From Leptolyngbyaceae cyanobacterium M33_DOE_097 (GTDB lineage Bacteria; Cyanobacteriota; Cyanobacteriia; Leptolyngbyales; Leptolyngbyaceae), in assembly GCA_015296075.1 (NCBI GenBank), contig DVDV01000401.1, forward strand, positions 1 through 45,962: a stretch of DNA of 45,962 bases, written 5' to 3'. Shown here piece after piece: positions 3,649-6,743 of the stretch. Under the pieces are notes generated by a model, which worked only from the letters and a program-made list of their open reading frames with translations, ran no database searches and was not told the origin of the DNA. The position numbers were made by a program, and so were the translations under genes. Within the stretch, counting starts at the first letter, position 1; each line of letters starts with the position of its first letter.

Positions 3649-3981
3649 CTACGACTTGTTTAAGCCCAGTCCGTTTTCTTCGGCGTAGCGATTCATAAAC
3701 CGAATAAACCGATCAAAGTCACTCGGTGATCGCATGATGTAGACTGCCTCAATCGCCTCTGGCTGACCGTTGACAAACTTTGCTTTCACTTCACGGGTCG
3801 AGATCTCGCCCTCTTCATCGATCAGGTACATCCCTGTCACTTCAGCGTTATTCGATAAAGCGCTAGGATTTTGGAAGTAGAAGGTTGCGGAACCATTGCT
3901 GCCATCTCGCGATCGCGTGATTCTTACATCTGGCACCACATCTTCGTCTACTCCCCGAGAAAATTGAATACGAGCTGGCAT
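3649..3981 (-). CDS. psb28: photosystem II assembly factor Psb28
   Basis: Psb28 binds the cytoplasmic side of the CP47/RC47 photosystem II assembly intermediate and is absent from mature dimers. The sequence has the family hallmarks: IQFSRG at the N-terminus, [12 protein letters not shown], the central ATFYF...N segment, and the C-terminal [15 protein letters not shown]. Its 110 residues match the usual length. The frame continues upstream to 4023, but the ATG at 3981 fits homologues and has GGAAGGA just before it, so I use that start. Downstream at 3565-3598 an 11-bp inverted repeat (ACAACCATCAC / GTGGTGGTTGT, one G-T pair) may end the transcript. The gene is divergent from the caspase-like gene. 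Confidence 0.93.
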
Positions 3982-4229
3982 AATCCTTCCGTCAGTCCTT
4001 AAGTATGCGATCAAGTCATTCACACCATCATACGGAACAGATGTTACTCAGGTAAACCTCCATTGTGTGAGGAGAGGAATTTCTGTGCCAACTGCGGTTG
4101 AATTCAGTATCCTTACAAAGACGTATCAGATCGTTGTTTGAGCATCATTACCACGATTGGTTGAGACACTCTTACAAATGACGCGGTTCGGCAGCTCAAT
4201 CTCCCATTGCATCGGTAATACCAACTGCC

Positions 4230-6743
4230 ATGAATAAGGTGGCACTGTTAGTCGGGGCGAGTCACTACCAAACAGATTTAGGGTTAGACGATTTAGATCA
4301 AGGTCTGACTGATTTTCATGCAGCTCTGCAACAAACGAACCCACCGTTTGAAAGTTTTTTGCTCTACAACTTGCCGCGGCTCGACTTACAAGAACAGGTA
4401 GAGGCTCTATTTCGGAAGCGCCAACCCGATGATCTGGTGATTTTAGTTTTAACGGGGTATGCCCTAGAAGACAATGGCAACCTCTACTTTTTGCAGACGG
4501 ATAGCCACGCCGACGGCTCTGGCAAAGTGTGGATCAACAGCATGTTATCAGCGGCGTTTTTGCGTGAAGTGATGGATAGCAGTCCGGCTCGCTACCAACT
4601 CGTGATTTTGGATTGTATCTTTCGGCGACATCTCCGGCACACCACAAGCGTTGAGCAGCCAGTCAACTTTCAACAGCTCTTAGGCACCCTGGAACCACAA
4701 GATCGGCTGGGAAACGCAAGCCGACGCAGGGGGCACGATCGCATCGTTTTGACGGCCCATACGTTGACGCACCACGTTCCGCCTGCGTTTCAAACTCCGG
4801 TGTTGTGGGGCTACTTGCAGTATTTGACGGAAGGTTTGCGGCGCGGTTATGCCGATACAAATCGTAATGGCGTGATCACGATTAAGGAGCTGCACAGCTA
4901 TGCTCAGCGCAAATTGCGGCAAGCGGCTCCCAGTTTAGAACCCGTTATGATGGGCACGTCTGCGGCACTGGATATCCCATTAACGCGATTTCCTACAGCG
5001 CGATCGGCGGTGCAATATGCCCACTTGATTGAGCGTATGCAAAGTCAGGCTGAGATTGATCACGAAAATCGCCGCGTGTTAACGGGCCGCGTTTTTTTAG
5101 ACGACATGCAGCGAATTTTTGAGCTATCATCCCAGCAGGCAGAGCAGATTGAATTTGATATTCTCCGCCCCCTTTGGGAGTTTTGGCAGCGATTACGAAT
5201 CTACAGCTACCACCTCTCAAACCTGGCTGCTCAGACCGAGACTTTAGAAGGTATGGAGCAGGCCACGAAGACCTTACAGCAGGCTCTGTATCTGACTGAA
5301 AGGCATACTGCCGTGATTGATGTGGCACCGTTTGTGGAAGAAGAACAGCAAAAGCGTGAAACCTATCAAGAGAACCTGGCTCGCTATGAGCAGGCTTTTT
5401 TAGCAGCCTTGCTGCGACAGTATCCCATTTCTGAGAGCGATCGCGAAGGGTTAAACCAGCTGCAGGCGATCTTGGGTTTGCGGAATGATGATGTTGAGAT
5501 AGCTGAGCGCAACATCCTATCGCGGATTCAGCAGTTGGCACAGGGACGCGCTGATGATGACGTGCCGATCGACCCCATCCCCCCCGAAGAGGTGCCAATT
5601 GAGACGGTTCAGGTGCAACCGCCTGCGAGTGAAACAGTTCCCCCGGCGAACCCCAATCTTGAGCGCATGCTCGAACATCTGGAGCGCACGGCTCTGCAAA
5701 ACGAAGGCACGACGCAAAATGTTGTGATTCAAATGACGCCAGAGACTCCAGTGGCACCCGAAACAACGGTGATTCAAACACCGCCAGGAGTTGAGCCAGA
5801 GCCAGAGCCAATTCCTCCGATTGAGCGAACGCCACGCCATCGTCCCCCCGATCGTCCCTTTGTTGTGGATTGGTTGTTGCCCTTGCTGCTGATTGCGGGG
5901 ATTGCAGGCACCCTGGCGGCGGTACTCTTGCCAAATTTACAAAGTTTGCGCTTACCTCAACTTCCTCAAGGCTCAAGTGTTGCGGCCAATCAAATTAATA
6001 ACCCGAATGAAGCGTTTCGGTTAGGTTTACAAAAGACTTCTACAAACGAATACACCGATGCGATCGCGGCTTACAATCGGGCAATTCAACTCAACCCTGA
6101 ATTTACAGAAGCTTATATCAATCGTGGTTATGTTCACCATCAACTCGGCGACTTGCCGAATGCGATCGCGGACTATGACCGTGCGATTCAACTGGGGGCG
6201 AATACAGCACAAGAAGATATTGCCTTGAGTAATCGCAGTCATGCTTATTTTGATCAGGGTAACTATACTCAGGCATTAACGGATGCTAACACGGTGATTG
6301 CTCGCAACCCAACGATGCCAGAGGCGCTGATCAATCGTGCAAATGCCCAAGTTAAACTGACACCGAGTACACAAACCTACACGGCTGCGATCGCGGACTA
6401 TACGAAGGCGATTAACAGCGCAGCCGAGCGTAGTTTGCCGCAAGAAGTAGCGGCGCGTGCCCATACCAATCGGGGGAATGCGTATTTACTTCTGAATCAG
6501 ATTGAACGGGCACTTGCGGATCAAAATCAAGCTGTTCAGCTTGCGCCAAATTACGCCGATGCTCACTTTAATCTCGGGTTAGCCAATGCTAAAAAAGGTG
6601 ACACGACTGCCGCGATTAACAACCTGACACGAGCGGCTGAGTTGTATGGTCAGCAAAGAAATACAGCGATGCAACAAAGAGCCGAAGCTGAAATCAATAA
6701 ACTGCGTCAGGGACAGCCCAGCACCGCTTTGCCGCCTTCCTAG
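4230..6743 (+). CDS. caspase-fold (orthocaspase-like) protein with lost catalytic dyad, membrane segment and TPR repeats
   Basis: Residues 1 to about 230 form a caspase/peptidase C14-like domain: start NKVALLVGASHY, strand DDLVILVLTGYALEDNG and strand YQLVILDCIF. The family's His (in GHG) is Tyr77 (GYA). The catalytic Cys, normally two residues after the Asp, is Ile130 (D128-C-I). Peptidase activity is therefore doubtful. A perfect 12-residue EF-hand-type loop D209-T-N-R-N-G-V-I-T-I-K-E220 remains, as in many Ca2+-dependent relatives. Next come a helical, probably coiled-coil region (about 270-430), a Pro/Glu-rich linker, one transmembrane segment (about 548-570), and four or five TPR repeats to the C-terminus. 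The likely role is a membrane scaffold or signalling protein. Non-catalytic Tyr-type orthocaspases are known in cyanobacteria. No clear Shine-Dalgarno was seen. Confidence 0.85.
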   Translation: MNKVALLVGASHYQTDLGLDDLDQGLTDFHAALQQTNPPFESFLLYNLPRLDLQEQVEALFRKRQPDDLVILVLTGYALEDNGNLYFLQTDSHADGSGKVWINSMLSAAFLREVMDSSPARYQLVILDCIFRRHLRHTTSVEQPVNFQQLLGTLEPQDRLGNASRRRGHDRIVLTAHTLTHHVPPAFQTPVLWGYLQYLTEGLRRGYADTNRNGVITIKELHSYAQRKLRQAAPSLEPVMMGTSAALDIPLTRFPTARSAVQYAHLIERMQSQAEIDHENRRVLTGRVFLDDMQRIFELSSQQAEQIEFDILRPLWEFWQRLRIYSYHLSNLAAQTETLEGMEQATKTLQQALYLTERHTAVIDVAPFVEEEQQKRETYQENLARYEQAFLAALLRQYPISESDREGLNQLQAILGLRNDDVEIAERNILSRIQQLAQGRADDDVPIDPIPPEEVPIETVQVQPPASETVPPANPNLERMLEHLERTALQNEGTTQNVVIQMTPETPVAPETTVIQTPPGVEPEPEPIPPIERTPRHRPPDRPFVVDWLLPLLLIAGIAGTLAAVLLPNLQSLRLPQLPQGSSVAANQINNPNEAFRLGLQKTSTNEYTDAIAAYNRAIQLNPEFTEAYINRGYVHHQLGDLPNAIADYDRAIQLGANTAQEDIALSNRSHAYFDQGNYTQALTDANTVIARNPTMPEALINRANAQVKLTPSTQTYTAAIADYTKAINSAAERSLPQEVAARAHTNRGNAYLLLNQIERALADQNQAVQLAPNYADAHFNLGLANAKKGDTTAAINNLTRAAELYGQQRNTAMQQRAEAEINKLRQGQPSTALPPS

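Follow-up and report, generated by a model that had tools for sequence, protein, structure and literature searches.

Gene and domain organization

The window, a stretch of 45,962 nucleotides spanning positions 1 to 45,962 of a contig from Leptolyngbyaceae cyanobacterium M33_DOE_097, carries an ATG-started open reading frame (4230–6743) that encodes a pseudo-orthocaspase of 837 residues with a membrane TPR tail. The reading frame agrees with full-length orthologues, most of which share an aligned start of the pattern MxxxALL, and an antisense ORF at 4993–5976 was discarded as a gene on overlap alone. All features lie on the forward strand. From its N-terminus, the protein comprises a p20-like caspase-fold domain (about residues 1–255; 4230–4994), a module of paired long helices (about residues 256–441; 4995–5552), a linker modeled at low confidence, a membrane helix (residues 549–567; 5874–5930), and a TPR domain (about residues 592–828; 6003–6713). 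The helical module is delimited by the AlphaFold models and by the ORF2 starts of orthologues that are split into two genes, in which the break falls inside the module, at about residues 333–340 in the numbering used here. The first-pass annotation, made from the sequence alone, had placed a coiled coil in this region; helices are indeed present, but in the models they are better called paired long helices. The membrane helix is the sole segment of the protein with a mean hydropathy of at least 1.6 and is helical in the model too, whereas the TPR domain is recognized by Pfam TPR_1 (E = 1.6e-30) and modeled with pLDDT values mostly of 90 or above. The succession of a membrane helix and TPRs described in that annotation is thereby confirmed. 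Among 39 relatives scanned, one (L118:101-1057) gave a weak Pfam Tic110 match in the helical module that follows its caspase domain (residues 244–306, E = 0.0026).

The structure prediction that the first-pass annotation had called for bears out its view that the caspase fold is recognizable. An AlphaFold model of residues 1–457, built from seven sequences, has a mean pLDDT of 71.8 and a pTM of 0.56; its confidence is moderate, with several loops at pLDDT below 50. The model superimposes on MALT1 paracaspase with a Z-score of 18.7 and an RMSD of 3.5 Å for 207 aligned residues (about residues 1–254) and on Arabidopsis metacaspase 4 with a Z-score of 17.7, the two matches together covering residues 1–256. 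Animal caspases match too, and whole caspases align with the model over residues 1–255. At the sequence level, NCBIfam caspase family NF047832 matches residues 4–231 (E = 1.1e-13), at 51.2 bits against a curated cut-off of 140. Pfam Peptidase_C14 has no match in the N-terminal 340 residues at E ≤ 0.01 but matches 16 of the 18 members of the protein's family at that threshold. A sequence search of the PDB with residues 1–267 found nothing at E ≤ 10, and with the family profile, matches at E ≤ 1 were confined to weak stretches in 18 sequences (ubiquilins, MALT1, caspases, and AMFR), of which we regard the ubiquilin and AMFR matches as chance. Judged by the predicted structure, the p20 region is a member of the caspase superfamily.

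A narrowly distributed family

Searches with a family profile identified orthologues in 18 of 42 genomes of the cyanobacterium's own taxonomic family, at 426–520 bits. None was found in 346 other genomes sampled from the class. The next match scored 332 bits and was a protein with an intact His–Cys (HC) dyad. G028, a nineteenth genome, has no more than the TPR end, located at a contig edge, and is not counted among the 18. A scan of named genomes yielded seven loci: four in Leptolyngbya or Leptolyngbyaceae MAGs, one in Pantanalinema (Leptolyngbyaceae), and two in cyanobacterial MAGs. The combination of a dead caspase domain with a membrane TPR tail, which had been singled out for this gene, is thus confirmed as a feature of the whole family.

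For comparison, we hand-picked 40 nearer relatives among the higher-ranking entries of the family-profile search and a second set of 40 down the ranking of another search, whose profile ends before the loop discussed below; the first profile includes this loop. L143, which has an internal stop, was represented by its best matching piece and left out of A4; the frameshifted L088 was excluded from alignments; and L001–L005, distant caspases of the cyanobacterium's own genome, were dropped from the tree and from the counts. In the tree, the 18 members form one side of a branch with support of 100/100 against the 40 relatives. The protein and its congener G001 sit on a long branch (1.18) within a group (96/98) that also holds the seven split orthologues, and a tree holding all split orthologues together was not rejected (p-AU = 0.497).

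Loss of the catalytic dyad

Alignment of the 18 family members with the 40 nearer relatives supports the earlier claim that both catalytic residues have been replaced. Tyr77 (codon TAT, 4458–4460) stands in the column of the GHG histidine, which is His in all 40 relatives and Tyr in 16 of the 18 members, with His in G035 and G004. Ile130 (codon ATC, 4617–4619) stands in the column of the catalytic Cys, which holds Cys in 38 relatives and Trp in two; among the family members, this column holds Cys in six, Tyr in seven, Ile in two, and Ser, Gln, and His in one each. The comparison of the dyad across orthologues, likewise recommended beforehand, gave YC in six members, YY in five, YI and HY in two each, and YS, YQ, and YH in one each. 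Neither His nor Cys is found in ten of the 18, and both are found in none. Cys129, considered as a nucleophile, adjoins the catalytic column, and its own column is Cys, Ser, or Ala in the relatives, so that it hardly resembles a catalytic Cys that has moved by one position. The protein with its Tyr77/Ile130 pair lacks the dyad of an active orthocaspase and, having both residues substituted, agrees in its dyad with the definition of a pseudo-orthocaspase in PMC6426788, which asks for a p20 domain with at least one dyad residue substituted and for no p10 domain.

The changes extend beyond the dyad. Gly133, which follows the Cys, is present in 40/40 relatives versus 0/18 family members, Arg122 in 40/40 versus 4/18, and Phe135 in 39/40 versus 3/18. 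Conversely, Trp193 (codon TGG, 4806–4808) is found in 17 of the 18 members, whereas Ser occupies this position in 38 of the 40 relatives. In the second set of relatives, the column holds Trp in 0/40, although seven of these 40 have a dyad other than HC; Trp193 therefore marks the family and not dead caspases generally. Scattered losses of the dyad outside the family were seen in L125, L132, L207, L209, L214, L217, L220, L221, and L225 (HW twice, YC three times, and CW, YA, RG, and LR once each), and all of them but L207 and L225, seven of the nine, have a canonical form of the loop discussed below.

One gene or two, and a predicted membrane topology

The family occurs as a single gene in eleven genomes, nine of which have complete copies of about 817–838 residues; those of G039 and G037 are cut by contig edges, at the N-terminus and at the end, respectively. 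In seven genomes, it is encoded by two ORFs that overlap by 4 nt (four genomes) or 11–14 nt (three genomes). Here, ORF1 comprises p20 and the first helices (325–335 residues), and ORF2 comprises the second helices and the TM-TPR half (517–574 residues). Wherever the contig continues, the TM-TPR half follows the p20 half, and the occurrence of the same pair both fused and split points to a joint function.

The neighboring genes vary between genera, and no further operon partner was recognized among the neighbors listed. The divergent neighbor (3652–4023, reverse strand) encodes Psb28 (Pfam PF03912); among the 19 loci compared, the congener G001 alone has a relative of it beside the family gene. 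At nine loci, two oppositely oriented genes follow, and the one member of each that was scanned is a methyltransferase and a Tic22-like protein, respectively.

A hydrophobic segment with a mean hydropathy of 2.0–3.0 precedes the TPRs in all ten fused proteins and all seven ORF2 products in which it was assessed. None of the seven ORF1 products has a segment of at least 1.6, and a second such segment was found only in G001 (1.61), inside p20. Lys and Arg are at least as numerous in the 15 residues before the segment as in the 15 after it in 17 of 17 proteins, and strictly more numerous in 16. This distribution of basic residues suggests an N-in/C-out arrangement, in which p20 would be cytoplasmic and the TPRs would face the periplasm or the thylakoid lumen. 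For the fused forms, the suggestion is weak: the net charges of the N- and C-terminal helix flanks are equal in our protein (1 and 1), and in G001, the C-terminal side is the more positive (0 and 2).

Purifying selection on the dead domain

Close pairs of orthologues allowed dN/dS to be estimated. For the p20 ORF, it is near 0.07 (0.033/0.50) in the split pair G018/G027 and near 0.04 (0.045/1.28) in the split pair G014/G023; over p20 of fused pairs, it is 0.21 (0.139/0.65) for G004/G020, 0.17 (0.225/1.36) for G004/G039, and 0.11 (0.174/1.63) for G017/G026. The split TM-TPR ORFs gave 0.22 (0.166/0.75) and 0.09 (0.196/2.28). These low values indicate that the dead domain is maintained where this is measurable. 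Between our protein and G001, synonymous sites are saturated over p20, so that constraint there is indicated by the intact frame and the conserved motifs. With the dyad intact in no member and p20 nonetheless under purifying selection where measurable, the proposal of a scaffold rather than a protease gains support.

An EF-hand-type loop shared with apparently active relatives

The perfect EF-hand-type loop that had been noted from D209 to E220 is present: residues 209–220 (4854–4889) fit the canonical 12-residue pattern and are flanked by model helices 195–209 and 218–232. Since a slightly looser form of the pattern has no match in 59,964 residues of neighboring ORFs, the match is not a chance one. 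By its loop and flanking helices, the segment is of EF-hand type, but Pfam EF-hand_1 scores the protein at 11.3 bits, under its cut-off of 25.4. The same profile matches eight of 39 relatives versus one of the 18 family members, and EF-hand_5, matched by 15 of 39 relatives at E ≤ 0.01, is absent among the families matched by the 18 members.

From the replacement of the dyad and the preservation of this loop, the first-pass annotation had suggested that the protein responds to Ca2+. The relatives speak against this suggestion. In the nearer set, in which 38 of 40 proteins have the HC dyad, the loop is canonical in 36 (L143 is among the four without it), and all 39 with letters at position 12 have Glu there. 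In the second set, whose profile stops before the loop, it is canonical in 22 of 40 overall and in 17 of the 33 with an HC dyad, as counted with a contiguous pattern, by which L226, with an insert inside the loop, is not canonical. Within the family, in contrast, it is canonical in only seven of the 18 members; position 12 is Asp in six and Ala, Asn, or Lys in five, the closest relative of our protein having Asn. The difference in Glu at position 12 between relatives and family has a Fisher p of 1.7e-7, with relatedness ignored. The loop is therefore no special retention in a dead family and did not come with the loss of catalysis: apparently active relatives usually have it, and it is less conserved where the dyad is gone, so the argument from a lost dyad and a kept loop points the wrong way.

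A scaffold in which Ca2+ at residues 209–220 switches the dead caspase domain, and hence a membrane complex, thus appears unlikely. It would fit the canonical loop between two predicted helices in our protein, the rarity of the pattern in neighboring ORFs, and the invariance of Asp at position 1 and Gly at position 6 in all 18 members. It is at odds with the presence of a single loop that scores below the EF-hand_1 cut-off, with the substitutions at position 12 within the family, and with the frequency of the loop in proteins that keep the dyad. From its distribution, we infer that the loop was inherited as a structural element of this orthocaspase type and is not the conserved function of the family; the copy in our protein may possibly have retained Ca2+ binding.

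A loop of this type, between two helices after the p20 core, is seen in many cyanobacterial HC orthocaspases (among L118–L157 and L187–L226). In the openly accessible main texts searched, no report of it in orthocaspases was found; the only paper returned mentions EF-hand motifs, in its available text, as additional domains in seven archaeal proteins. The characterized orthocaspase MaOC1 is reported to be autocatalytic without Ca2+ (as cited in PMC8283722).

Discussion

That pseudo-orthocaspases exist, a few of them with TPRs or TM helices, is already in print. Tyr at the His position is well described in cyanobacterial pseudo-orthocaspases (PMC6426788, PMC8283722, PMC7889975), and the first-pass annotation was right to mention inactive Tyr-type forms from this phylum. 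In its available text, PMC8283722 gives 16 dyads besides YS and YN, among them YC, YQ, and YH but not YI, and reports pseudo-forms with TPR_1 (one), TPR_16 (one), and TM helices (37). The YS/YN clades of Klemencic et al. 2019 (PMC6426788) resemble our protein in having a p20 fold, Tyr in place of His, a replaced Cys, and presumed inactivity. Our protein differs from them in several respects: its dyad is YI (YI, YY, YC, and others in the family); it has no TAT-like N-terminal extension, since the caspase fold starts at residue 3; and it bears a helical, TM, and TPR tail, whereas those clades are described as having no identifiable C-terminal domains. The alphaproteobacterial FS pseudo-orthocaspases treated in the same paper also carry TPRs C-terminal to a dead p20 domain but have an FS dyad and belong to another phylum, and neither a TM helix nor a fused or split layout is mentioned for them in its available text. 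SyOC (sll0148) of Synechocystis, likened here by its description in PMC7889975, is cyanobacterial and has Tyr at the His position, and its knock-out is reported to alter the oxidative stress response; by the same description, it differs in its YG dyad, and a TPR tail is not mentioned in the text available.

The nearest relatives found are cyanobacterial orthocaspases whose C-terminal domains vary (GUN4, FGE-sulfatase, TPR, and PBP-like); they have a related p20 and, in most cases, the EF-type loop but differ from the family in their mostly HC dyads, the Ser at position 193, and their other tails. One HC relative, L056:259-2364, has C-terminal TPRs, so that such tails also occur on apparently active members. 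The vWA-MoxR and EACC1-caspase systems of Kaur et al. 2020 (PMC7159879) likewise include membrane-associated two-gene layouts with a caspase. Our protein, at 51 bits, is well short of the curated NF047832 threshold for EACC1-caspases, and in the split loci of the family, the caspase gene lies 5′ of the one for the TM protein. In the literature searched, as far as its text was available, we found no account of the Tyr77/Trp193 signature, the narrow distribution, the fused or split organization, or the loop as a feature of the orthocaspase type.

The reading that we consider somewhat more probable than all others together is that of a catalytically dead, membrane-tethered caspase-fold adaptor that acts by binding. 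It builds on what sequence or model provides: the fold, the loss of the dyad, Tyr77 and Trp193, the TM helix, the TPRs, the gene organization, and purifying selection. Scaffold or competitor roles have been proposed for pseudo-orthocaspases (PMC6426788), and peptide-binding or dominant-negative ones for inactive caspase domains (PMC7159879). In such an adaptor, p20 would lie in the cytoplasm and the TPRs on the periplasmic or lumenal side of the membrane. As a guess from the residues themselves, Tyr77, Trp193, and the non-Cys residue at position 130 might modify or block the former active site; that site may still accept a peptide or protein as a ligand but leave it uncleaved. The p20 and TM-TPR halves would be kept together by the paired helices, and the binding of a partner on one side of the membrane could be coupled to that of a partner on the other. 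Members that keep the Cys (six) or the His (two) may retain partial chemistry.

Regulation of an active orthocaspase in the same cell by a decoy or dimer-type mechanism, comparable to cFLIP, is also an improbable alternative. Potential targets exist, since L001, L002, L003, and L005, four caspase homologues encoded in the cyanobacterium's own genome, have both His and Cys motifs; but in this genome and in that of G001, none of the five candidates scored in each is a second match at E ≤ 1e-20. When HC relatives supplied the p20 profile, the pseudo-orthocaspase gene itself was the best match listed for the genome (4.3e-21, with 17 of 25 candidates scored), and Klemencic et al. 2019 (PMC6426788) argue against such a role for prokaryotic pseudo-variants. 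Of these homologues, L002 is associated with GUN4 and L005 with nSTAND1. The genome also holds a homologue without the HC dyad, L004:1336-3564, which has SGYG at the His site and keeps the Cys in LDTC; its N-terminal RR motif is TAT-like by eye, and a similar motif is present in L001 and L003.

Residual or altered chemistry, with a Tyr-Cys site in split members or another nucleophile supporting a weak peptidase or ligase, seems very unlikely. Cys130 is retained in six of the seven split members, and dN/dS is very low in both split pairs measured; yet this Cys is absent in 12 of the 18 members, including the one described here, and the Gly133 invariant among the nearer relatives is lost throughout the family. 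A pseudogene decaying on its way out, as eroding active-site motifs and the long branch of this lineage might suggest, is scarcely credible and largely refuted by nine complete fused genes open over their full length, by the low dN/dS of close pairs, and by 28 invariant columns over the N-terminal 340 residues of the 18 members.

The binding adaptor and the inherited loop can be joined in a bolder picture, which we think has little chance of holding in full: a two-part transmembrane complex built on a dead caspase, in some members of which the loop would sense Ca2+, would relay cytoplasmic Ca2+ or protease signals to a periplasmic or lumenal TPR platform, and the same loop would serve many active orthocaspases of cyanobacteria as a Ca2+ switch. 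Apart from this picture, the presence of an EF-type loop within the caspase fold in many cyanobacterial orthocaspases that appear active offers a concrete Ca2+ hypothesis for this type of enzyme. Cyanobacterial pseudo-caspases are common but little explored, and the family described here is a clean case, in which the dyad is broken in every member seen while the dead domain is still under selection. Its membrane-TPR partner is fused to the caspase domain in some genomes but encoded by a gene of its own in others, so that the question of what the domain works with can be tested.
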